The notes below the pieces were generated by a model that was not told the DNA's origin, ran no database searches, and saw nothing but the letters and a program-made list of their open reading frames with translations. DNA of 32,955 nt from a virus. Shown here piece by piece: positions 614 to 32,955 of the stretch. A program made the translations under genes and the position numbers. The stretch spans positions 1 to 32,955 of IMG/VR virus record IMGVR_UViG_3300032516_000101; one strand, given 5' to 3'. The first letter of the stretch is position 1. Each line of letters starts with the position of its first letter.

Positions 614-1370
614 AACGGTTATTTCTGGAATATATAGAGTCAGAAACACAATAGATGGAAAAATGTATATTGGTTCTTCTGTTGATGTGACACGAAGATT
701 GTGGGAGCACAAAAATAGACTTGTTGGCAACAAAAATGAGAATCCACATTTACAAAATGCTTGGAATAAGTATGGGGCGGACAATTTTGAATTTGAACTA
801 TGCGATGAGATTGCTACTTCAATAAATAAAGTAACGAGAGATTACAAGAAATTACTTAAAGATAATTTATTGTTTTTTGAACAATTGTGGTTGGACAATT
901 ATTGGGATTGGGGATGTTTATACAACATATTGCCGATAGCGGGAAGCGCACTGGGCAGTGAACATTCAGAAGAAACTAAGAAGAAAATAAAACGCATAAT
1001 GAATTCAGAATCAGTAAGACGGCGCAATAGTGAAACACATAAAAACAAATTACACTCGGAAGAACACAAAGAAAGAATAAGACAGGCAGGTCTTGGTCGG
1101 CATCTTTCCGATCAACACAAGATCAACATAGGTATATCTGCCAAAGGAAGAACTTCGTGGAATAAGGGTAAAGAAGCTACCGAACACATGAAAAATATGG
1201 TAAGGGGAGAGAACAACGCTTCGGCAAAGCTAACAAAGAATAAAGTATTGGAAATACGAGCAAAACACATTACTGGTCAATACACTCATGCCCGACTAGG
1301 TGTTGAATATAATGTTAGTCGTAGAACAATTGGCAGGATTATCAATAACGAAAAGTGGAGATCGGTATAA
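597..1370 (+). CDS. GIY-YIG homing endonuclease with NUMOD repeats and C-terminal HTH
   Basis: A protein of about 257 residues. The GIY-YIG nuclease domain is at the N-terminus (G11-I12-Y13, Y24-I25-G26, then RRLWEHK with the conserved Arg). The middle carries NUMOD3-like modules (SEETKKKI, SEEHKERIRQAG, WNKGKE). The last 50 residues look like a helix-turn-helix DNA-binding module (ARLGVEYNVSRRTIGRI). Such proteins cut DNA at a long target and spread as homing genes. ATG 597 is preferred over an in-frame GTG at 582. The gene overlaps its neighbours on both sides: the methyltransferase ends at 613, and its own TAA shares one base with the polymerase ATG. This shows clean insertion between, or displacement of, genes. 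No intron is visible. Confidence 0.85.
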   Translation: MVTRYKTVISGIYRVRNTIDGKMYIGSSVDVTRRLWEHKNRLVGNKNENPHLQNAWNKYGADNFEFELCDEIATSINKVTRDYKKLLKDNLLFFEQLWLDNYWDWGCLYNILPIAGSALGSEHSEETKKKIKRIMNSESVRRRNSETHKNKLHSEEHKERIRQAGLGRHLSDQHKINIGISAKGRTSWNKGKEATEHMKNMVRGENNASAKLTKNKVLEIRAKHITGQYTHARLGVEYNVSRRTIGRIINNEKWRSV

Positions 1371-4300
1371 TGACATTTGTTCATTTACACAATCATACCC
1401 ATTACTCAATAGGGGATGGATGTTCAAGTGCCAAGGATCTTGTCACGAAAGCAAAAGAGCTTGGCCATAAAGCAATCGCTTGTTCGGATCATGGAAACGG
1501 GAATGCCCTATACGAAGCGTGGAAAGAAGGCAAGGCAATAGATATCAAAGTCCTTTGTGGCGTTGAGGTTTATCTTGGTGCTCAGTTAAAAATAGAGGAT
1601 GAAGAAGGAAAAATAAAAAGGGACACTTCATACCATAGTGTTTTACTTTGTAAAGATTATCAGGGATATCAACAACTTTGTAAATTGCTCTATAAGGCCA
1701 ATAAGGAAACCTATTATTACAAACCCGTCATATTGTTTGATGATTTTTTTGCCATTGAGCCGGGCCATTTGACAATTTCTACCGCCTGTATTGGTGGGAT
1801 AATCAATAAATATTTTTTAGAGGATCAAGATGAAGAAGCCTATAAAATGGCAATTCGCCTTAAGGAATTTTTCAAAGATGATCTTTATTTTGAATTGATC
1901 CTCAATGAGCTTAATGAACAGAAAGTATGTAATGAGAAACTTCTTAAACTTGGAAAAGATATTGGGCATGAGAAATTTATTCTTACCAATGACACACACT
2001 ATCCAAATAAAGAAGATATTAAAACGCAGGACGCACTCAAACTTATTATCCGGAAGAATACGATAAAAGAAATCGAGGAACATCCGGAAAAAAGTCCATT
2101 TGCGTCAGTAAGAAAATCATTTATTTGTTCCCGGCAAGACTTCCATGACTTTAATAAGGAATTTGGCTTTAATTACGATGATTCTCAAATAGATTCGTGG
2201 CTCGATCTTACAAATGAAGTTGCCGATAAATGTAATTTCCAATTTGACACGACCACAAAGAAATTTCCAAAAGTAAAAGTTCCCGAAAAATATAAAGATG
2301 TCAATGATTATTTTAAAAAGCTTTGCGTAAAGGGACTTACGGCGAAAATAGAATCCGGAGAAATTCCCAAAGAAAAAACAAAGGAATATGCTGATCGGCT
2401 TAAATACGAAATGAAGGTTATTTGCGCCGCTGATTATGCGGATTATTTCATAATTTATTGGGACATTTTTGAATGGGTAAGGGAACAAGAAATTTGGGTA
2501 GGACCAGCAAGAGGATCGGCCGGTGGTTGTCTAGTTTCATTTGTTCTTGGGATAACAAAAATTGATCCAATAAGACATGACCTTATGTTCGAGAGATTTT
2601 TAGCAAGCTCACAAGTAAAAATTGAGGAGGATGTTATCGAAGAACTGGGTGATGGCGAAAATGGTGATCAAATTGTTGGACCAATAAAATCAAACATTAT
2701 TAAGAAAGAAATTAAACGGGAAGAAATTAAGAATGGTAAAAAGAGGATTGTTACCAAAATTATTTTGGATCGTGTTTCAGCGCCCGATATTGATAGTGAT
2801 ATAGATTCTGACTCCAAGTCCTTTGTGGAAGATTATCTTCGTATTAAATATGGTGAGGATTCGGTAATTCATGTGCCGACTTACTCCGAATTCCATGTGA
2901 AATCGACCCTTCGAGATCTGTGTCGAGTTTATAATCGTGACGACGATGGCTTGTTTAATAAAATTTCGAAGGAATTGGAAGAAGATGTTCCGGTTCAATT
3001 TAGTGACAACATTGAGGAATATTTGAAGAGTTTGTGCGACAATAATGAAGATATGAAACAATTTGTAGACAAGAATAAAGATATATTGCCACTTGCGAAT
3101 TCACTTTATCGAAAAATTAGACATCTTGGGAAACATGCGGCTGGCGTTGTTATTTTTGACGGTCCGATTTATGATTACATTCCCGTTCAAAGGACCGGTG
3201 GTGAGGTAATTGCCTCATTTAGCGAGGGAACCACAAAGAAATTCTTGAGCGATCTGAAAATATTGAAACTCGACATTCTCGGACTTGATACCGTTTCAAT
3301 CATTAAAGATACGGTAAACATGATTAAAGAAAAGAAGAATGTTGATTTAACGGAGAAAATTTATCATCTTGATTTAGAGGATGAAAACATTTATCGGACA
3401 GTAAGAGATTATGAGAACGCCGGAATATTCCAAATGGATGGTTTCGGAATTAATAAACTTGCGCGGGATGTAAATCCACAATCTTTCGAGGATGTGGTGG
3501 CAATTTCGTGTCTTTATCGGCCAGCAGCCCTTCAAGGAGGTCTGGCTTATCAATATGCGGAATCAAAAAACGATCCAACCAAGAAAGTCGATGTTCCAAA
3601 GATATTTCAAAAGTATGTGACGAAGACCTATGGCGTAATTCTTTATCAAGAGCAAACAATGTTGTGTGTCGCGGAAGTCCTTGGAATTTCTCTAGGAGAA
3701 TCCGATAAATGGAGGAAACCATTTGAATACGGATTCAGGAATGAGTGGGTTGACGGCCTCGACCTACAGAATCTTGATCGAGAAAGAAAAGATCGACCGA
3801 AACTTGACGGATTTTTAAAGGCATATGACGAAAGAATAAAAATTACACATCCAGAACTGACGGAACAAGAAAGACAAGAAACATTACTTTACTTGCTTAA
3901 CTTTACGGGATATTCATTTAACAGAGCGCATGGTCTTTCTTATGGTTACATTACGATTATGTGTCTTTGGCTAAAATGTTACTACCCGTCTGAATTTTTT
4001 ACGAGCCTAATTAGTAGGTGTGATGATGATGATAAGCGCAAAAAATACATTATGGCAGGGAAAAAGAAAGGGCTAAATATTCTTCCCTTTAGCGTATTCA
4101 AATCGAAGTTTGCTTGTCAGCCAGAAGGCGACAATGGATTGAGACTTGGATTATCAATGTGTAAAGGTTTTGGCACTAAAGCATGGGAAGAGTTAGAACC
4201 AAGACAAAAATTAATAACTGATTTAAAAAGTTTTTACAGTCAATCATGGTCAAAGATGAATCGAAAATGTATTAAAGTATTAGCTAGCGTTGGGGCATTT

Positions 4301-4837
4301 GACGAATTTGGTTATACGCGGAAATCCATTTTAGAATTTGTCGAACAATATGCGGACAATACAAAAGCTGCGAAAAAGAATAAACGATCAAACGAAGAAA
4401 TTTGGGCCATTTTGGAGAAAGCGGATGGTAAGAATAAAGAATTAAATAAGAAAGAATTTCTGAAATTGGACAAGGAATTCCTTGGATTTTCCACACAACA
4501 GATATTGGATGATTCATTTGCGCAGATTCAGGAAGTTTTTAAACGAAATAAAATCGGAACATTTGCGGACATGTCCACAAAAAGATCTGGGACAGTTGGC
4601 GGTTTTGTTGAAAGTATTGTCGATAAGAAAACAAAAACGGGAAAATTGTATTATGAAATCGTTTTATCAGATGGTTCACAAAGTAACAGGGTAAGGATTT
4701 GGCCATGGAATCTTGATAATAGTTTCGATGGCTCACAACTTAGCGAAAATTCTGTTATTGTATTAGATTTATTATATGAAGACAAATTCGGATTTTCAAC
4801 AATGAGAAATGGAATGTTTAAAATCATCCAAAATTAA
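1370..4837 (+). CDS. dnaE: DNA polymerase III alpha subunit (DnaE-type replicase)
   Basis: A protein of 1155 residues, near the usual DnaE length. In order: a PHP domain (HLHNH near residue 5, CSDHG, CGVEVY, TNDTHY); the polymerase palm (GPARGSAGG at 378-386, FERFL at 407-411, PDIDSD at 472-477 carrying catalytic Asp residues); fingers (GKHAAGVVIF, YGVILYQEQ, FTGYSFNRAHG); a helix-hairpin-helix region (KVLASVGAFDEFGYTRKS); and a C-terminal OB fold from about 1060 to 1155. It synthesises phage DNA. ATG 1370 follows GTGGAG and overlaps the preceding stop. An insert of about 53 residues, charged and unrelated to E. coli DnaE, separates FERFL from RVSAPDIDSD. The OB fold is duplicated as a separate gene at 6027. 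Confidence 0.95.
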   Translation: MTFVHLHNHTHYSIGDGCSSAKDLVTKAKELGHKAIACSDHGNGNALYEAWKEGKAIDIKVLCGVEVYLGAQLKIEDEEGKIKRDTSYHSVLLCKDYQGYQQLCKLLYKANKETYYYKPVILFDDFFAIEPGHLTISTACIGGIINKYFLEDQDEEAYKMAIRLKEFFKDDLYFELILNELNEQKVCNEKLLKLGKDIGHEKFILTNDTHYPNKEDIKTQDALKLIIRKNTIKEIEEHPEKSPFASVRKSFICSRQDFHDFNKEFGFNYDDSQIDSWLDLTNEVADKCNFQFDTTTKKFPKVKVPEKYKDVNDYFKKLCVKGLTAKIESGEIPKEKTKEYADRLKYEMKVICAADYADYFIIYWDIFEWVREQEIWVGPARGSAGGCLVSFVLGITKIDPIRHDLMFERFLASSQVKIEEDVIEELGDGENGDQIVGPIKSNIIKKEIKREEIKNGKKRIVTKIILDRVSAPDIDSDIDSDSKSFVEDYLRIKYGEDSVIHVPTYSEFHVKSTLRDLCRVYNRDDDGLFNKISKELEEDVPVQFSDNIEEYLKSLCDNNEDMKQFVDKNKDILPLANSLYRKIRHLGKHAAGVVIFDGPIYDYIPVQRTGGEVIASFSEGTTKKFLSDLKILKLDILGLDTVSIIKDTVNMIKEKKNVDLTEKIYHLDLEDENIYRTVRDYENAGIFQMDGFGINKLARDVNPQSFEDVVAISCLYRPAALQGGLAYQYAESKNDPTKKVDVPKIFQKYVTKTYGVILYQEQTMLCVAEVLGISLGESDKWRKPFEYGFRNEWVDGLDLQNLDRERKDRPKLDGFLKAYDERIKITHPELTEQERQETLLYLLNFTGYSFNRAHGLSYGYITIMCLWLKCYYPSEFFTSLISRCDDDDKRKKYIMAGKKKGLNILPFSVFKSKFACQPEGDNGLRLGLSMCKGFGTKAWEELEPRQKLITDLKSFYSQSWSKMNRKCIKVLASVGAFDEFGYTRKSILEFVEQYADNTKAAKKNKRSNEEIWAILEKADGKNKELNKKEFLKLDKEFLGFSTQQILDDSFAQIQEVFKRNKIGTFADMSTKRSGTVGGFVESIVDKKTKTGKLYYEIVLSDGSQSNRVRIWPWNLDNSFDGSQLSENSVIVLDLLYEDKFGFSTMRNGMFKIIQN

Positions 4838-5769
4838 GTCCATTCGATAATCATCTGCTTTGTTTTCCACATTTGTGATGTTTTTCTTAATTTTTCTTTT
4901 GTTTCTTCTGATGGGTGTTTGTCAATGTGCCACAAGCTATTTTTACGGCATGATTCTTCTGACATCTTCTTGCCCTTACTCCAAGGAATTCTACCTATCA
5001 TTTTTTGACGGCGTTCTTCGGGCATTTTCTGCCCCTTATTCCATGCGATTTTATTTGCTCCACTGAGTTTATTCCTATATTCTGGTCTATCCCACATTTT
5101 CTTCGATGCTACTGACAATCTTTCTAGCGTTTCTTTCGATGGATGCTTACCATACCATGGGTTTTTATCATTCAAGTTTCTTTGTCTATCTGCTTCTTTA
5201 TATTCTGGTGTGTTGTTGATTCTTTTCGCATTTACACTTATCTTTCTCTTGTGTTCTTCGGTGAGTGGATATCCAGCATATTCTTTTCGCCAACGACCAC
5301 TATTAGATCCACCATCGTCGATGTTGACACATTTAATACCGTGTTTAAAACAATGTTTTCTTATAAAGACAATGTATTTCTTTTCATTTTTGTCGGTCTC
5401 ATCCACATCATAACATTCAAAAAATTTATTACCTATTTGTAGCCATCCGAGAAACGGTACGGGAATATTGTTTTTTAATATTACGGGAATCGGTTTCATA
5501 TTGAGCGATAATAATTTTTTAATCCAATTAACTTTGTAGCTTCTTTTTCCCATTTCGGATAGGTGTTTTGTGAATCTTCTATTTAAAAATTGTGTTGTTT
5601 GTCCTCCATATCTTATGATTCCATATCTCGGATCAACAAGACCATAAATTATCCCGATTTTATCTTTTTCTTTTGGTGGTAGCCGTTCGATTGGATCTCC
5701 TTCATCCGTTTTACACTTTTTATTATTTGTGATTTCATTTTCTTGTGACGATGTTTGTTCTTCTATCAT
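4834..5769 (-). CDS. GIY-YIG endonuclease with NUMOD3 repeats, antisense to its neighbours
   Basis: A protein of 311 residues when started at the ATG whose complement is 5767-5769. A diverged GIY-YIG core is visible (IIYGLVDPRYGIIRYGGQT followed by LNRRFTKHL). The C-terminal half holds several NUMOD3-like repeats (LTEEHKRKIS, KHPSKETLERLS, WNKGQKMPEE, WSKGKKMSEE, HPSEETKEKL), which bind DNA in homing endonucleases. The frame extends to an ATG at 5847, but the extra 26 residues overlap the next + strand gene and look like antisense translation. No strong ribosome site is seen at 5769. The gene is convergent with the polymerase: the two stop codons share TTAA. It separates the polymerase from its detached OB-domain copy, which suggests the homing gene took part in that rearrangement. 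Confidence 0.8.
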   Translation of the reverse strand: MIEEQTSSQENEITNNKKCKTDEGDPIERLPPKEKDKIGIIYGLVDPRYGIIRYGGQTTQFLNRRFTKHLSEMGKRSYKVNWIKKLLSLNMKPIPVILKNNIPVPFLGWLQIGNKFFECYDVDETDKNEKKYIVFIRKHCFKHGIKCVNIDDGGSNSGRWRKEYAGYPLTEEHKRKISVNAKRINNTPEYKEADRQRNLNDKNPWYGKHPSKETLERLSVASKKMWDRPEYRNKLSGANKIAWNKGQKMPEERRQKMIGRIPWSKGKKMSEESCRKNSLWHIDKHPSEETKEKLRKTSQMWKTKQMIIEWT

Positions 5770-5830
5770 AAAATAATTATCATTGAAATGACTCGCTGTT
5801 ATGTTGACGAGCAATGGAGTTAGTAAAAAT

Positions 5831-6019
5831 ATGAGAAAACAAAACACGGATGGAATGGTTAGGATCGCACAGGAAATTTACGACATTATCCGGCAATATT
5901 GTGCGCAGAAAAGATTAAACATTAGGGATGTAGCTAACGAATCAATGAAAGAATGGGCAAGTAAACATATTTCAAAAGAAGATTTTAAGTTGGTTAATGA
6001 AATTATAAATAGAAATTAG
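5831..6019 (+). CDS. Small basic protein, possible ribbon-helix-helix DNA-binding protein
   Basis: A protein of 62 residues from ATG 5831, with GGAG about 12 bases upstream; an in-frame ATG at 5801 exists but has no better signal. The pattern fits a ribbon-helix-helix fold: a short strand (MVRIA) followed by two helices (EIYDIIRQYCAQKRL and IRDVANESMKEWASKH). RHH proteins are small dimeric repressors or antitoxins. This is pattern matching only. It lies between a divergent homing endonuclease and the OB-domain gene, so regulation of its neighbours is a guess. Confidence 0.6.
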   Translation: MRKQNTDGMVRIAQEIYDIIRQYCAQKRLNIRDVANESMKEWASKHISKEDFKLVNEIINRN

Positions 6020-8018: not shown

Positions 8019-8345
8019 ATGAATTTAAAAGAATATCAAGATTGGTCACAAAGTGTCTGTATTTATCCAAAAGATAAAGCCATTGAATATGTTGCCCTTG
8101 GTTTGGCTTCCGAATGTGGTGAACTTTGTGGAAAAATTAAGAAGATGTTAAGAGATGACAATTGTATAATAACCAACAAAAAGAAAGAAGAACTCATTGG
8201 GGAAGCAGGCGACTGTCTATTTTATCTTAGTAGAATTTGTCAAGAAACCGGAATATCATTACAACAAGCAATGGAGGACAACATAAAGAAATTAGAAGAT
8301 CGTAAAGAGCGCGGTGTTCTTGGTGGTAGTGGAGACAATCGATGA
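8019..8345 (+). CDS. mazG: MazG-like nucleotide pyrophosphohydrolase (candidate MazZ)
   Basis: A protein of 108 residues with the all-helical MazG fold signature: E32-C-G-E35 and E62-A-G-D65, the ExxE...ExxD acidic residues that bind Mg2+. Family members hydrolyse NTPs or dNTPs to NMP and pyrophosphate. In phages that use 2-aminoadenine a MazG-like enzyme (MazZ) turns dGTP into dGMP, the substrate of PurZ; a PurZ-like gene lies 4.5 kb downstream at 12843, so that role is possible but not proven by sequence. The start follows GGGG. Four bases overlap the next deaminase gene. Confidence 0.88.
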   Translation: MNLKEYQDWSQSVCIYPKDKAIEYVALGLASECGELCGKIKKMLRDDNCIITNKKKEELIGEAGDCLFYLSRICQETGISLQQAMEDNIKKLEDRKERGVLGGSGDNR

Positions 8346-12544: not shown

Positions 12545-12841
12545 ATGTTGGAATTTGAAAAGCCCCGTATTAATGTTTATTCAGCCTGCGATAAAGAGGG
12601 ACATCCGATAGGCGGAAAATGTATATTATGTAATTGTTCTCCGACCGATATGCGGATTGAAGGTGAAGTTAACGGATTTCTACATACAAATTGTTGGTAC
12701 TTCGTGAGACAATATTCGCAAAATTTACAATACACATTTGGCGAGGCACTAGAACAAATAAGAAATAGATTATTTAGAGAAGAACAAAAGAAGGAAGAAA
12801 CAACAACGAAGGGGGCAACGGAAATGGTTGGTGGATGTTAA
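12545..12841 (+). CDS. Small protein with treble-clef-like zinc site
   Basis: A protein of 98 residues. C26-x2-C29 and H47-x2-C50 (GKCILC and HTNC) make a plausible CCHC zinc site of treble-clef type, followed by a helix and a charged Glu/Lys-rich tail. No family is assigned. The stop TAA overlaps the likely ribosome-site region of the PurZ-like gene; the ATG of the next gene is two bases after the stop. Confidence 0.65.
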   Translation: MLEFEKPRINVYSACDKEGHPIGGKCILCNCSPTDMRIEGEVNGFLHTNCWYFVRQYSQNLQYTFGEALEQIRNRLFREEQKKEETTTKGATEMVGGC

Positions 12842-12842
12842 T

Positions 12843-14084
12843 ATGGCGTTTGATACCGATTTCTTTTTTACGCCGGGAAAACTCTCAATAGTGGCTGATG
12901 GAACATATGGATCATCGGGGAAGGGGTCGCTTGCGTCATTTTTAACAGAACATGCTGATTATCAATTTGCTTGTAACACTTTTTCCGCCCAAGCAGGACA
13001 CTGGGTGAGACTCGACCCGACAGAGCCAAATAAGCCGGGACGAACTTATTTTTACCAATCACTTAATAGTTGTGCCTATCAAAAGGACAAATATGAGAAA
13101 TTGTATATTGGTCCAGACGCAGCTATCGAATTTCCAGCACTTATGCGCGAAATAGAGGAGAATAACATCCCAGTCAAAAAATTGGGAATCCATCCTCTCT
13201 GCACAATCTTGCAGGACAAGGACAGCGCCTACGAGAGAGGAGAAGTAGATTATGAAGGGAATCCGCTGTCAAATCGTGGTGATGGCACAATGAAATTCGG
13301 GTCAACAGCGCACGGAGTTGCTCCTTGTAGAACCAGAAAAATGCTGCGAAGGCAAGATACCATTCTGGCCAAAGATTTTGTTGCTCTTGAAGAAATGATT
13401 TGTGATGTTGAGCGGGAAATAATGGATCGACTCGACAAGGGTCAAAAGGGTCTTCTTGAAATTGCTCAAGGATTTCCGCTTAGCTTAAATTACAAGTTTT
13501 ATCCAGCCACAACATCAAGAAATGTTACCGTATCGGCAGCCCTCGACGGAATGATGCTACCACCAATTTATGCTGGAAATGTAATGTTGAACTTCAGAAC
13601 TTTTCCAATTCGCATAGCCAATGATAAATATATTGGTGACGATGGTAAATTTTTAACCTGGGCCGAAATTCAACAATACGACAAAGAGGATAAAAAATAT
13701 CAAATTTACAAAGGAACTTCTGGCGGTTGGTATGATGATCAAGAAGAAACGACTTGGGAAGAAATAACAAAAAGCAGCGGCGCAGTAGAAAAAATCCAAG
13801 AATTGACGAGCGTAACTAAGATGCCCCGTCGCGTAGCAACCTGGAGCAAACAATGTTTGATTGATGCCGTTAAATATAATAGAACACACGGAAGGATGTT
13901 TATAAGTATCAATTTTTTAAACTATGTCCAAAATGACATTCTTGGTTATCGAGGTGACAGTATCAAAGAATTCCCAAAATGTATTGAGTGGATTAATAAA
14001 AATTTGTGTGATCTGGATAAATTGAGTGCTGAACTTAAAATATTAGGCACTGGACCTAAAACAGACGATAAGATTCTTTTTTAA
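12843..14084 (+). CDS. purZ: Adenylosuccinate synthetase homologue, PurZ-like (Asp to Ser in the P-loop)
   Basis: A protein of 413 residues, slightly shorter than PurA (about 430). It aligns along its whole length: YGSSGKGS (22-29) for PurA WGDEGKGK, QAGHW for NAGHT (general acid His kept), GSTAHGVAPCRTRKMLRR for GTTGRGIGPAYEDKVARR, AQGFPLSLNYKFYPATTSRN for [20 protein letters not shown], and a C-terminal GTGPKTDD for STGPDRTE. The catalytic base Asp13 of PurA is Ser24 here. That change is a mark of PurZ, which condenses dGMP with aspartate on the way to 2-aminoadenine (Z) nucleotides; host PurB finishes the reaction. The start ATG 12843 has GGTGGA upstream; in-frame TTG 12828 is an alternative. 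MazG at 8019 could supply dGMP. No DatZ-like gene is certain in this window. Confidence 0.85.
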   Translation: MAFDTDFFFTPGKLSIVADGTYGSSGKGSLASFLTEHADYQFACNTFSAQAGHWVRLDPTEPNKPGRTYFYQSLNSCAYQKDKYEKLYIGPDAAIEFPALMREIEENNIPVKKLGIHPLCTILQDKDSAYERGEVDYEGNPLSNRGDGTMKFGSTAHGVAPCRTRKMLRRQDTILAKDFVALEEMICDVEREIMDRLDKGQKGLLEIAQGFPLSLNYKFYPATTSRNVTVSAALDGMMLPPIYAGNVMLNFRTFPIRIANDKYIGDDGKFLTWAEIQQYDKEDKKYQIYKGTSGGWYDDQEETTWEEITKSSGAVEKIQELTSVTKMPRRVATWSKQCLIDAVKYNRTHGRMFISINFLNYVQNDILGYRGDSIKEFPKCIEWINKNLCDLDKLSAELKILGTGPKTDDKILF

Positions 14085-25850: not shown

Positions 25851-27005
25851 ATGCCTCGACAAGACCCCCGTTTGACAATTATCTTTAAGAACCATGAAAC
25901 AATAATTTACCTTGTCGATGGTGAAATTGTTCGACGGGACTTTAATAGAGAATTTACTAGCGGTGGAAATGTTGGTAGATACCCAAATTTTATGCCAGAA
26001 TCTGATATCTGGGTTGAATCAACACTTAATGATAAAGATAAATTGTTTAATACCGCCCATGAAATTGTTGAGCGGCATCTGATATTGTGGAATAACCTTG
26101 AATACAACAAAGCGCACTTAAAATCATCGAAATTTGAGGCCGCAATTCGAAGAACTAGCACATCAATTGAAGACCCAATAAAACTTGCCGTTGATATAAC
26201 AAATCTTTGTAAAATAAATTGGTGGTTAAGGAACCAACATGGTCATTTGTGGCCGATGTTTATCTGCTGTGAAAGTGGTGGGCGAAAAGTTGATCTTGAA
26301 CAATTTGCAAATAGATGTGTGGGAAAATGTGCGGAATCAAAAATATACTGTCCAATATGTGGTAAGGTGATGCGTCACTTAAAAAATGGCGTGGACCATA
26401 AATTTCCTGACTTTTTCGACACCCACAAAATATCAACGGATATCAAGGATTGGATTTCAGAGGAAATGGTTGAATGGTTCGAGGATAGGACAAAGCGTCA
26501 CATTAATCTTGTCCAAAAATACTGTGAGAAAATAGAGAAATATGATCCGGTTAGGTTTGCCGGATTAATAGAGAGAGGAAAAGAGCACGATTTAAGTAAA
26601 TATGGAGAGATAGAAAAAGACCCTTATATCCTCATTTCATGGAATTATAAAATCAAAAATAGTGGAAAGAAACCCCTCGAAATGCCATTATTTATTAAGA
26701 GAAAACTTAACGAAGCGACTGAGCATCATATCAAAACATCCAAGCACCATCCAGAAGCATGGAGCCCAAGAAAGGCCGCTCTTTTAAATACATCTGACAG
26801 GGATAAAGCACCCGAAAAAATAATTGACGCAACCAGAATGGATATTTTGAGCGTTGGCGAGTTGTCAGCAGATTGGCTTTCAATGGGGGTCGAATTACAT
26901 TCGGATGTAGTAAAATGGGCGAAAGATAACATAAATAAACGCTGGAAATTTACAAAAGAACAAGAAGGACTTATCTGGGAATTGATAAGCGTGGGTATCC
27001 AATGA
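25851..27005 (+). CDS. Fusion of a HExxER domain, zinc knuckle and HD-like (DUF5662-type) domain
   Basis: A protein of 384 residues. Domain 1 (about 10-105) has IIYLVDGEIVRRDF, FTSGGN, FMPESDIWVE, H70-E71-x2-E74-R75 and NKAHLKSSKFEAAIR, a pattern found in hypothetical proteins of phages and archaea and looking like a degenerate metalloprotease helix. Next come four Cys (156, 160, 167, 170) forming a zinc knuckle. Domain 2 (about 210-384) has H217, H246-D247, E291-H292-H293 and H299-H300, the spacing of HD-type metal hydrolases of the DUF5662 kind. Substrate unknown; HD enzymes of phages include dATPases (DatZ), but this is not a clear DatZ. It overlaps the ART gene (ATGA). Confidence 0.65.
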   Translation: MPRQDPRLTIIFKNHETIIYLVDGEIVRRDFNREFTSGGNVGRYPNFMPESDIWVESTLNDKDKLFNTAHEIVERHLILWNNLEYNKAHLKSSKFEAAIRRTSTSIEDPIKLAVDITNLCKINWWLRNQHGHLWPMFICCESGGRKVDLEQFANRCVGKCAESKIYCPICGKVMRHLKNGVDHKFPDFFDTHKISTDIKDWISEEMVEWFEDRTKRHINLVQKYCEKIEKYDPVRFAGLIERGKEHDLSKYGEIEKDPYILISWNYKIKNSGKKPLEMPLFIKRKLNEATEHHIKTSKHHPEAWSPRKAALLNTSDRDKAPEKIIDATRMDILSVGELSADWLSMGVELHSDVVKWAKDNINKRWKFTKEQEGLIWELISVGIQ

Positions 27006-27955
27006 TTTCTTTGAAAAAGTTAATTTTAGAAACAAAATATAATTTGGGAGGTGTGGCAAGTATTGATATAGATCCCGCAGAAAAGCATAACCTTCCATAT
27101 GAGTCAATAAAGATATATCGTGGGGAAGCTTTTGATTGGCTAGATGACTTTTTAAAGAGATTTGGTGGATTTCCACAAAAGGGTGATGAAGTTACGGTAA
27201 AAATAGATCGTTTAACTTCCTTTTCGACGGAGCAAGATACAGCAAATATTTTCGCATTTCAATATAATGATCGGGATAATGCCTTTCGTGTCGTTTATTC
27301 TTTGGTCGCCAAAAGTGATGATATTCACGATCTAAATTTTGATAACGAATACCAAAAATATAAATTTAAGGTTGAACACGAGATTCTTTTGAAACCCGGT
27401 AGATATATCGTAAAGATAGAAAAAATTGTTTATCCTTTTTTATCGGATTTGAAAGCTCCGACATGGCTCATTTCGACAGAAGATGCCACAAAAAACATAA
27501 AAAGTAAATTGTGGGCGAGAAAAGAACAAGATAAAGAAGAATACGTTCAGTTCCTGATAGCTAATAAAGCTAATTTGCGGGAACAAAAAAATTATGTTAG
27601 ATATTTCGCTTGGGTCGACCCAAAGGGTAAAATTCATCCATGTCCCACTGGAACTATTCATGATGATTGGGCAATGCGATACTTACAAAATACAGATATT
27701 GAAACTTGGACAACCATAAAAGGTAATGTTGGCGAAAGTGATTATAGACAATTTTCTGAGTATTTACTTAAACTTGGGTGGACTCGTCAGAGTGATTGTT
27801 CTTTTGAAGTCGACAGAATTACAAAAACAATTGTGTGGAATATCCACGATGCTGCTAAGGAAATTGGCTGTAGAACTGTTTTTGTGAGTTCTTTACAATC
27901 CGATTACGATTTTATTGAATTGCCGCTTGATCAATTTGTGGCAGAATATGGTTGA
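27002..27955 (+). CDS. ADP-ribosyltransferase (R-S-E class) with capsid-targeting-like leader
   Basis: A protein of 317 residues. The three R-S-E motifs are in order: Y39-R40-G41, the STS-type L71-T72-S73-F74-S75-T76, and E125-H-E127 followed by ILLKPGRYIV, as in arginine-specific mono-ADP-ribosyltransferases. Such enzymes move ADP-ribose from NAD to host proteins; T4 Alt and ModA/ModB do this to RNA polymerase. The first ten residues (MISLKKLILE) match the T4 capsid-targeting form with an (I/L)xE cleavage site at Glu10, so the enzyme may be packed in the capsid and injected. The C-terminal 140 residues form an additional, unassigned domain. Start ATG 27002 overlaps the previous stop. Confidence 0.78.
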   Translation: MISLKKLILETKYNLGGVASIDIDPAEKHNLPYESIKIYRGEAFDWLDDFLKRFGGFPQKGDEVTVKIDRLTSFSTEQDTANIFAFQYNDRDNAFRVVYSLVAKSDDIHDLNFDNEYQKYKFKVEHEILLKPGRYIVKIEKIVYPFLSDLKAPTWLISTEDATKNIKSKLWARKEQDKEEYVQFLIANKANLREQKNYVRYFAWVDPKGKIHPCPTGTIHDDWAMRYLQNTDIETWTTIKGNVGESDYRQFSEYLLKLGWTRQSDCSFEVDRITKTIVWNIHDAAKEIGCRTVFVSSLQSDYDFIELPLDQFVAEYG

Positions 27956-27958
27956 GTT

Positions 27959-28651
27959 ATGATTTTACAAGAGAAGCGTTCTTATAAATTTGATCTCCAA
28001 CAAAAATTTGATGAGTTCAACCGAGATATTTTTAACGACGAGATAACAATTGCCGTTTCTTTGTCATGGAATTCACAGATGCGGCAGAAACTTGGTGTGA
28101 CTAGGTATCAATTTGATGCTACCGGATTTTGGAATGTGCGAATTGTAATGTCTTCATTTTTTGATATGACAGATGTCACATTTCGGGAGACGCTCATACA
28201 CGAGATGGTTCATTGTCTTATGTTACAAAATGGATTGCCAGTGGATCATGGCAAAGAATTTGTCGATAAAATAAATGAAATCAATAGCAAATTTGGCACA
28301 CATATCACAGTTACGAATGATGAGCCATTAACAACGGAACCAAGATTACAAAAGAAAACGGAAAATATCATAATAAAAAAGAACAAAAGTGGAAAGAAAT
28401 CGATAGCATTACTTGGTAAGAAGATATTAACATTCATCATGAGCATTGATTGGCAGAAATATGCGAGTGACAGAAATTATCCACCAGAAGCAATTGAATC
28501 GATAAAATTGTGTATCACCACTGCCGATCAAACATGGCGATTGGCCCATAGTCTCGCAACCAAAATTCGATTTCAGCAGTTTCCCGACGATCCAAAAATA
28601 ATAGATGAGATAGAAAACAATTCGCAGTTGGTCCAACAACTCTACCCTTAG
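27959..28651 (+). CDS. SprT-like zinc metalloprotease
   Basis: A protein of 230 residues. An N-terminal SprT pattern (LQQKFDEFNRDIFNDEI) leads to the zinc site H81-E82-M-V-H85 and H97-G-K-E-F, the HExxH...HGxxF layout of SprT/Spartan proteases. These cut DNA-bound proteins in eukaryotes; in phages their role is unknown. The C-terminal zinc ribbon of classical SprT is missing; instead a basic linker (about 135-150) and helices follow. The gene follows the ADP-ribosyltransferase by three bases and was probably expressed with it. Confidence 0.82.
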   Translation: MILQEKRSYKFDLQQKFDEFNRDIFNDEITIAVSLSWNSQMRQKLGVTRYQFDATGFWNVRIVMSSFFDMTDVTFRETLIHEMVHCLMLQNGLPVDHGKEFVDKINEINSKFGTHITVTNDEPLTTEPRLQKKTENIIIKKNKSGKKSIALLGKKILTFIMSIDWQKYASDRNYPPEAIESIKLCITTADQTWRLAHSLATKIRFQQFPDDPKIIDEIENNSQLVQQLYP

Positions 28652-31055: not shown

Positions 31056-32222
31056 ATGATTAAGTTTATGGATCTATTAAAAGAAGATATTTCCGATCAA
31101 TATCCTCTCTACATTAGCGAACGAAACAAAAAGTGGATTGATCTGCTTCGTAATGCTGTTGAAAAGAAATTTATTTGGAACGTCGATTTTAAAGAAGCGA
31201 ATTTTGCCCTTAGTAGAAATTTTGATGATATTGGACGATGGGTTTCAAATGGTAAGGGTGGTTCTACTGATGACAATTTCACCGTTGCTACAGCAAAATA
31301 TGCCGGGGTAGGTGCGGATCAGGTTAGACATACACAATACAGTGTCTCGCAAGGAACATTTCAGAATTTTCAATCGATAAATAAATTGATTCGAATTTTT
31401 GAAAAAGCCGTTGTTGTGGATGATGGAACCAGCAAGGTTATTCAGAAATATCTTGAACTTTACAAATCGTGGAAAACCATTAAGGACATGCTCGACGCCG
31501 TGAAGTCATTCATAACCAAGGGACGGAGGATTGATCCGACAAAACCCTCTAAGCCGATATATCAGCCACCAACACAATCAACCAAAGTTCTTGGCGAAAT
31601 CAAGGTGTTGCTTGAGAATTTGATTGAAAAACATAAAGAAGAATTGAAGCAGGGCTATGTTGATATGGTTACCGGAATGGCCGACAGATTCATGAAGGAA
31701 CGAACTCCTGCCGCAGCTAGCCCAGGTAAATTTTTCAAATTTAATTCTTATATTGTTAGTCTTATTGATTCATTATTTGAATTCGATGAAAAGCGCGACC
31801 CATGGGAATACGAGTGGTATAAAGGTGGGCGAATAGTTAAGATTAGGTATCGAAGCGATGCGAATGAGAAAATTGAGAAATTTGCAGTGCGACAAGCTAA
31901 CGCTGCTGCCGAGGATTTCGTTGCTAGTAATATGAGGAAACTCACCTCCGTTATTGGTGAAAAAGTTAAGGGCGGGACCGAATTGGTAAATAAAACCGTA
32001 GATGGGTCATTTGGCGTTAGTTTCAGTGGTCGTATGAGTTTTAAATTTTCGGATAGCACCGGATTTATTACCAGGAACGACATAACAATGAACGTGTCTC
32101 CTCGTGGCTTGGTTTTCAATCAATTCCCAATTACTTTTCATGATGTAACTTTCAAGGATGGAACATTTAGGAAATTCGTGCCTGAAAAGGCGATGAACGA
32201 AATTTGGGCAAAGGAACAATGA
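31056..32222 (+). CDS. Large protein with capsid-targeting-like leader, candidate injected protein
   Basis: A protein of 388 residues of unknown family. It begins MIKFMDLLKE, the same ten-residue form with (L/I)xE at Glu10 as the ADP-ribosyltransferase at 27002 and the next gene. A helical region (about 105-235, including FEKAVVVDDGTSKVIQKYLEL and LENLIEKHKEELKQGYVDM) is followed by a C-terminal beta domain (about 300-388). There is no obvious catalytic motif. It is the first gene after a consensus promoter and overlaps the following gene by four bases. Confidence 0.68.
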   Translation: MIKFMDLLKEDISDQYPLYISERNKKWIDLLRNAVEKKFIWNVDFKEANFALSRNFDDIGRWVSNGKGGSTDDNFTVATAKYAGVGADQVRHTQYSVSQGTFQNFQSINKLIRIFEKAVVVDDGTSKVIQKYLELYKSWKTIKDMLDAVKSFITKGRRIDPTKPSKPIYQPPTQSTKVLGEIKVLLENLIEKHKEELKQGYVDMVTGMADRFMKERTPAAASPGKFFKFNSYIVSLIDSLFEFDEKRDPWEYEWYKGGRIVKIRYRSDANEKIEKFAVRQANAAAEDFVASNMRKLTSVIGEKVKGGTELVNKTVDGSFGVSFSGRMSFKFSDSTGFITRNDITMNVSPRGLVFNQFPITFHDVTFKDGTFRKFVPEKAMNEIWAKEQ

Positions 32223-32955
32223 TTAAATTTTCTCAGCTACTTACTGAAATTGGTGAACAACTGGCAAAAGAACTTTCTGATACTGGTGTTTCTTTGCTTT
32301 CTAAAGATGAATGGGATAAAGATGGTGGTTATTGGATCTCTACGGGTGGTCAGCACCGTTTATATACTCTTCGGCACGATTGGAACGAATCCTATCAATT
32401 TGGTGAAATTGGTGCTAGTGGACAGAGGCAAACTGGAACAACAAGAAAATCATATTGGGTTATTAATATTGCTAAGTCATGGGCGGAAACATTAAAGAAA
32501 CTTCCTGCTCTTCTTAAAAAATATGAAATAAAGAAAATTTACATTCCAGATTACGATGCCGATCTTGATCCAAATGCCACAGCAAGAGATATTGTTTTTG
32601 ATGAGAATGGTCCAATGATTGTCGGCAAGAAGCACGAGGGGAAAACGGTTGGTTGGGTAAAGGAAAATGACCCATCATATCTGGTTTATCTTGCGACACA
32701 TATTTCATCTGGGAGTTATGAAACAAAGAAATTTATTGAGTTCCTTAAAGTTTATATGGCCGAAGACATTAAAAAGCAAGAAGAATCATTGACCGGTGAT
32801 GCGGCAATTCCTTTTGGGAAATATAAAGGGCAAAAATTGTCGGATATTGCGAAGGTGAATGTCGGTTACATTAAATGGTTGGCAAACTCGGATAGTGATG
32901 ATCGAGGATATACTCCGCATGACGATCAAGGGAAATTGTTACAACAGGCTGCGAG
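32219..32955 (+). CDS. Protein with capsid-targeting-like leader and GKYKG/DUF3820-like C-terminal motif (runs off the window)
   Basis: The frame is open from ATG 32219 to the last base, giving at least 245 residues. It starts MIKFSQLLTE, the third copy of the (L/I)xE leader. Residues about 35-130 look like a small globular domain (GGYWISTGGQHRLYTLRHDW). Later, IPFGKYKGQKLSDIAKVNVG followed by YIKWLAN matches the GKYKGxxL...YLxWL motif of ExoX C-terminal/DUF3820 domains, thought to bind nucleic acid. The ATG overlaps the preceding TGA. Because it lacks a stop in the window its full length is unknown. Confidence 0.7.
   Translation, partial: MIKFSQLLTEIGEQLAKELSDTGVSLLSKDEWDKDGGYWISTGGQHRLYTLRHDWNESYQFGEIGASGQRQTGTTRKSYWVINIAKSWAETLKKLPALLKKYEIKKIYIPDYDADLDPNATARDIVFDENGPMIVGKKHEGKTVGWVKENDPSYLVYLATHISSGSYETKKFIEFLKVYMAEDIKKQEESLTGDAAIPFGKYKGQKLSDIAKVNVGYIKWLANSDSDDRGYTPHDDQGKLLQQAA

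Follow-up and report, generated by a model that had tools for sequence, protein, structure and literature searches.

An uncultured phage, known from a 32,955-base virus record that is a fragment of its genome (the window, by which the whole of this stretch of DNA is meant), probably encodes a divergent enzyme of the ADP-ribosyltransferase (ART) type which, like T4 Alt, is packed in the phage head and enters the bacterium by injection. The gene specifies a protein of 317 amino acids in which a ten-residue capsid-targeting-like leader is followed by a putative ART domain of the R-S-E clade and by a C-terminal WIDP/GWxR domain (Table 1). Phage ARTs delivered from the head were known already; what is new is the divergent R-S-E member, the architecture that combines leader, ART and WIDP/GWxR domain, and the WIDP/GWxR domain itself.

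Table 1. Positions of the gene, its parts and related features; coordinates are those of the window except in the last two rows, which refer to Microcystis phage Mel-JY01
Feature	Position	Strand	Remarks
DUF5662 protein, upstream operon neighbour	25851..27005	+	stop overlaps ART start
Putative R-S-E ART gene (leader, ART domain, WIDP/GWxR domain)	27002..27955	+	317 aa
Leader MISLKKLILE, residues 1-10, capsid-targeting-like	27002..27031	+	predicted prohead-protease cut after E10 (I-L-E)
Putative ART domain, residues ~32-145 (approximate limits)	27095..27436	+	three ordered motif blocks
Arg40, first ART motif (IYRG)	27119..27121	+	sequence
Ser75, second ART motif (SFST....A..F)	27224..27226	+	sequence
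Glu125-His126-Glu127, third ART motif (ExE, EHEILLKPG)	27374..27382	+	sequence
C-terminal WIDP/GWxR domain, residues ~197-317	27590..27952	+	leave-query-out profile, alignment, AF2
SprT-like protein (PF10263), downstream operon neighbour	27959..28651	+	
Gene with leader MIKFMDLLKE	31056..32222	+	388 aa, unknown function
Gene with leader MIKFSQLLTE, cut by window end	32219..32955	+	ExoX-like_C domain (PF20600, E=1.5e-12)
Mel-JY01 leader-bearing paralogue	L017:10276-10923		
Mel-JY01 leader-bearing paralogue	L017:12056-12715		

The gene and its putative ART domain

The gene's ATG shares bases with the upstream stop codon (ATGA), and 3 bases separate its own stop from the start of the downstream gene, so that its start is well supported and it can be placed in a tight operon. 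Elsewhere in the window, two homing-endonuclease-like genes (582-1370 and 4834-5847; group I intron endonuclease type, PHROG homing endonuclease) flank a DNA polymerase III alpha gene (1355-4837). An adenylosuccinate synthetase homologue (12828-14084) scores higher with PurZ (149.7 bits, below the cut-off of 300) than with purA (68.6), and it carries GSSGKG at the site where PurA has GDEGKG; in combination with the MazG-like gene found at 8019-8345, the PurZ-leaning homologue hints at a 2-aminoadenine (Z) genome.

The residues Arg40, Ser75 and Glu125-x-Glu127, to which an earlier note on this DNA had drawn attention, are all present and stand in proper ART context, and the protein carries the features by which the R-S-E clade is recognized, namely an Arg on the first strand, a Ser-Thr and a Glu (ExE), in that order. 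A strict version of the three-block motif was matched by none of 300,000 shuffles, and a looser version, which recovers 10 of 12 T4-Alt-family proteins, was matched by none of 200,000 shuffles and, among 1958 ORFs of at least 100 aa outside the Alt loci, by the 317-aa ORF alone; both patterns were composed with the query known, and these figures bound chance rather than constituting a blind test. Arginine specificity is a reasonable reading of the ExE pair.

As the same note had remarked, no long-range similarity to Alt is visible: a profile of 11 Alt ART domains from Straboviridae scored the ART part at 5.2 bits, with only the ExE block aligning with weight, and hhalign of the Alt profile against the ART part returned a probability of 3.7% over 24 columns. 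Membership of the T4 Alt family, considered as a candidate, is not supported by this profile score, which is not significant, and the protein may be called Alt-like by its motifs, a description which the profile does not extend to belonging to the family. Searches for relatives gave no credible match in Pfam, PHROGs or NCBIfam with the whole protein or its halves, no match in a PDB sequence search with the 317-aa protein, no direct relatives by tblastn in phage and plasmid collections, no relative in peptide-pattern scans of viral and prokaryote contigs, and no match in the records of the nearest related phages with either the full protein or its C-terminus; nor was a homologue of the ART domain found by the tblastn and pattern searches. 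Because AF2, run on the full protein as a single sequence without homologues, reached a pLDDT of 35 and produced a useless model of the ART part, the ART fold is one that we infer.

The capsid-targeting-like leader and its counterparts

The leader matches the pattern M-x-x-h-x-x-h-h-x-E, which is shared by T4 Alt (MELITELFDE) and T4 IPII/IPIII (MKTYQEFIAE) and is matched incompletely by T4 IPI (MKTFKEFTST), and it shows the T4-type features of a ten-residue N-terminal leader with hydrophobic residues at positions 4 and 7 and an L/I-x-E processing site. The first ten residues of T4 IPIII suffice for packaging (PMC9026906; see also PMC10229621), mutation having assigned positions 4 and 7 to targeting and positions 8 and 10 to processing, and the T4 protease gp21 cleaves after L/I-x-E (PMC9026906); according to the annotation of X15811, 6 N-terminal residues are removed from T4 Alt. 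The earlier suggestion that the leader indicates an Alt-like strategy is supported by its fit to the T4 capsid-targeting sequences at positions 4, 7, 8 and 10, of which IPII/IPIII show hydrophobic residues at the first three and Glu at the last, although their mature proteins are unrelated to the present one. Among 109 candidate starts in the window, three genes bear leaders of this pattern, where shuffling yields 0.154 on average (P=0.002); the pattern was drawn up with knowledge of the query. Prohead protease and capsid genes were not seen in the window, which is a fragment. Head packaging followed by injection is the best reading of the leader.

The nearest named relatives, identified through a gp6-like baseplate protein (31-33% identity), are Microcystis phage Mel-JY01, LR756508 and Flavobacterium phage immuto, and all three encode a T4-type prohead protease; the PF03420 search, which covered four related phage records, gave a score above the family cut-off in these three. 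Mel-JY01 also has a pair of paralogues, 43% identical, with the leaders MIKLKSLLQE and MIKLMSLVTE, in which the leader is followed by W-H-[LV]-T...I...N and later by E-M-E; this arrangement suggests a resemblance to another ART type (H..T / E.E pattern), and the paralogues were recognized by none of the HMM libraries and had no significant match in a PDB profile search. A protein of phage immuto (L009:41016-41453) combines the leader MISIYNILKE with a glycine-rich kinase-like loop (LGEGDYGAVF), and a 7.9-kb IMG/VR contig (L050) contains several adjacent ORFs with leaders of the MKSFKQYITE type, apparently a cluster of internal-protein genes.

A recurrent domain at the C-terminus

The C-terminal part, which the earlier note had left unexplained and which could have been private to this protein, is instead a recurrent phage domain: a WIDP/GWxR profile built with the query left out finds the 317-aa ORF (E=1.1e-12, against 2.7 for the runner-up) in a search space of 1880 ORFs from loci that were not fetched by the DNA patterns. 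These patterns (W-I/V-D-P-x-G-K ... G-W and close variants) were used to gather copies of the domain from viral contigs, where they revealed many phage proteins with the same arrangement. The signature in residues 197-317 is W[IV]DPxGK...H..W...GWxR, with W204, P207, G209, K210, H220, G259 and R262 conserved; conservation is biased in the columns fixed by the DNA patterns (W, D or S/T, P, G, K and GW, with R in the last two scans), yet His, and Arg in the first two scans, are conserved among the copies despite their absence from the patterns.

In the structure prediction of the C-terminal part, which the earlier note had proposed, AF2 with 14 sequences of the domain gave a confident model (pLDDT 91.9, pTM 0.84). 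The model has no clear match in the PDB by Foldseek (best E 0.26) or by VIA-align (best Z 3.1), from which novelty of the fold does not follow. Its best match in BFVD is an uncharacterised Caudovirales protein, A0A6J5MAL6 (E 0.013, probability 1.00, TM 0.55/0.58). A PDB profile search with the domain found nothing significant, Pfam scans covering many copies turned up no matching model, and tblastn of two copies against named phages found no match. In L023, L054 and L058 the beginning of the domain coincides in part with the profile of phrog_1615 (111 aa, of unknown function), to which the window protein has no match.

The domain is associated with leaders and with a variety of enzymes. Capsid-targeting-like leaders occur in 7 of 26 non-redundant WIDP/GWxR ORFs as against 14 of 772 other ORFs on the same contigs (Fisher P=1.4e-6, a test in which ORFs within one contig are not independent); examples begin MKSMKQYIIE-AKFGHTLWIDPKGK (L049) and MIKLKNIVVE-TWGQFFKAWWMDPDGK (L071), the hyphen marking the end of the leader, and in L050 a leader precedes a poly(A)/tRNA nucleotidyltransferase coupled to the domain. 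Large phage proteins carry up to four copies each, some of them together with a 2H phosphoesterase (L023, L054, L058, L072 and L075) and some with weak HAD-phosphatase matches. One protein (IMG/VR locus L033) unites an ART-PolyVal domain (PF18760, E=9.6e-12) with two copies, and the C-terminal end of its domain (...STFIEEYG) aligns with that of the window protein (...DQFVAEYG). Such polyvalent proteins thus resemble the window protein in joining the domain to an ART within one polypeptide; they differ from it in being far larger and in having ARTs that are described as of the H-Y-D rather than the R-S-E type (PMC5512222).

Its occurrence in several copies per protein and with varied partners suggests that the domain serves delivered proteins in binding or in structure, and that it is less likely to be specific to a target. 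The possibility raised in the earlier note that the C-terminal part chooses the target protein is not favoured, the domain being tied to head-targeted and multi-domain proteins, and a reusable accessory module which acts at the virion or delivery stage is likelier than one which selects a single host target. More tentatively, and with a good deal less confidence, it can be proposed that WIDP/GWxR is a general, previously undescribed module of head-delivered effectors, which might for example hold cargo in the prohead core or aid passage through the tail, in many large aquatic phages that deliver ARTs, nucleotidyltransferases, 2H phosphoesterases and other enzymes. No support was obtained for a further candidate role of the C-terminal part, the binding of RNA, although the absent fold match excludes nothing in this regard.

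Proposed mechanism and competing explanations

On balance the gene probably encodes a capsid-targeted, head-packaged and injected R-S-E mono-ADP-ribosyltransferase which acts on host proteins. Guided by its leader, the protein would enter the core of the prohead, a T4-type prohead protease would cleave after Glu10, and the mature enzyme would be packed along with the DNA and then injected. With residue roles assigned from established knowledge of R-S-E ARTs, NAD would be held by Arg40 and Ser75, Glu127 would catalyse the reaction and Glu125 would orient the acceptor, so that host proteins would be ADP-ribosylated early in infection, most likely on arginine. T4 Alt, an R-S-E member of the Alt/VIP2 family which is packaged and injected, resembles the window protein in presenting the R, S-T and ExE blocks in the same order and in bearing a leader of the same pattern; the two differ in that Alt, in addition to lacking significant sequence similarity, is 682 aa long, has its catalytic part at about 427-598 rather than near the N-terminus, and bears a different accessory domain. 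Surveys find head-packaged phage ARTs to be common in myoviruses (PMC9503650, PMC5512222), with about 44% of phage ARTs in contexts that suggest head packaging (PMC9503650).

The shortness of a ten-residue pattern, and the fact that the operon partners are DUF5662 and SprT-like genes and not head genes, would suit an R-S-E ART that is made and acts in the infected cell like T4 ModA/ModB, with a leader that is coincidental or serves another purpose; this explanation is nevertheless unlikely, because a single fragment contains three leader genes against the small number expected and because leaders of this kind are enriched among proteins with the C-terminal domain. Distinctly unlikely, too, is an ART fold whose activity is that of an NADase or is directed at nucleic acid or a small molecule. 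ART acceptors are diverse and no sequence neighbour fixes the substrate in this case, but the ExE pair is typical of enzymes that modify proteins on arginine, and the characterised members of the T4Alt/VIP2 and Mod families act on macromolecules (PMC9503650).

The remaining two explanations have very little probability. We know of no sequence determinant of RNAylation, the attachment of NAD-capped RNA to host proteins, which a head-packaged ART might carry out like T4 ModB and which the earlier note had also raised. The R-S-ExE signature is the same as that of ModB, but it is common also to Alt and ModA; among these T4 enzymes only ModB RNAylates efficiently, the activity of Alt and ModA being weak (PMC10468400), so that sequence does not predict RNAylation. 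Nothing about the C-terminal domain points to RNA binding. It is equally improbable that the protein is not an ART and that the three motif blocks have arisen by coincidence in an unrelated protein: this would accord with the lack of any profile match and of a usable fold model, but the ordered motif is found in most Alt-family proteins and, outside the Alt loci, in no shuffle and in no other ORF of those searched, and it is typical both in its spacing and in its context.

ARTs delivered from the head act ahead of all phage gene expression, and to our knowledge few of them have been studied outside T4. The analysis exposes a widespread domain which, while it has neither a Pfam entry nor a clear match among solved structures, has a confident model and recurs beside leaders and effector enzymes. 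It would also extend the T4 capsid-targeting code, that is, the leader together with the prohead protease, to a distant and uncultured lineage, and with the code extended in this way other injected proteins may be found by their leaders.
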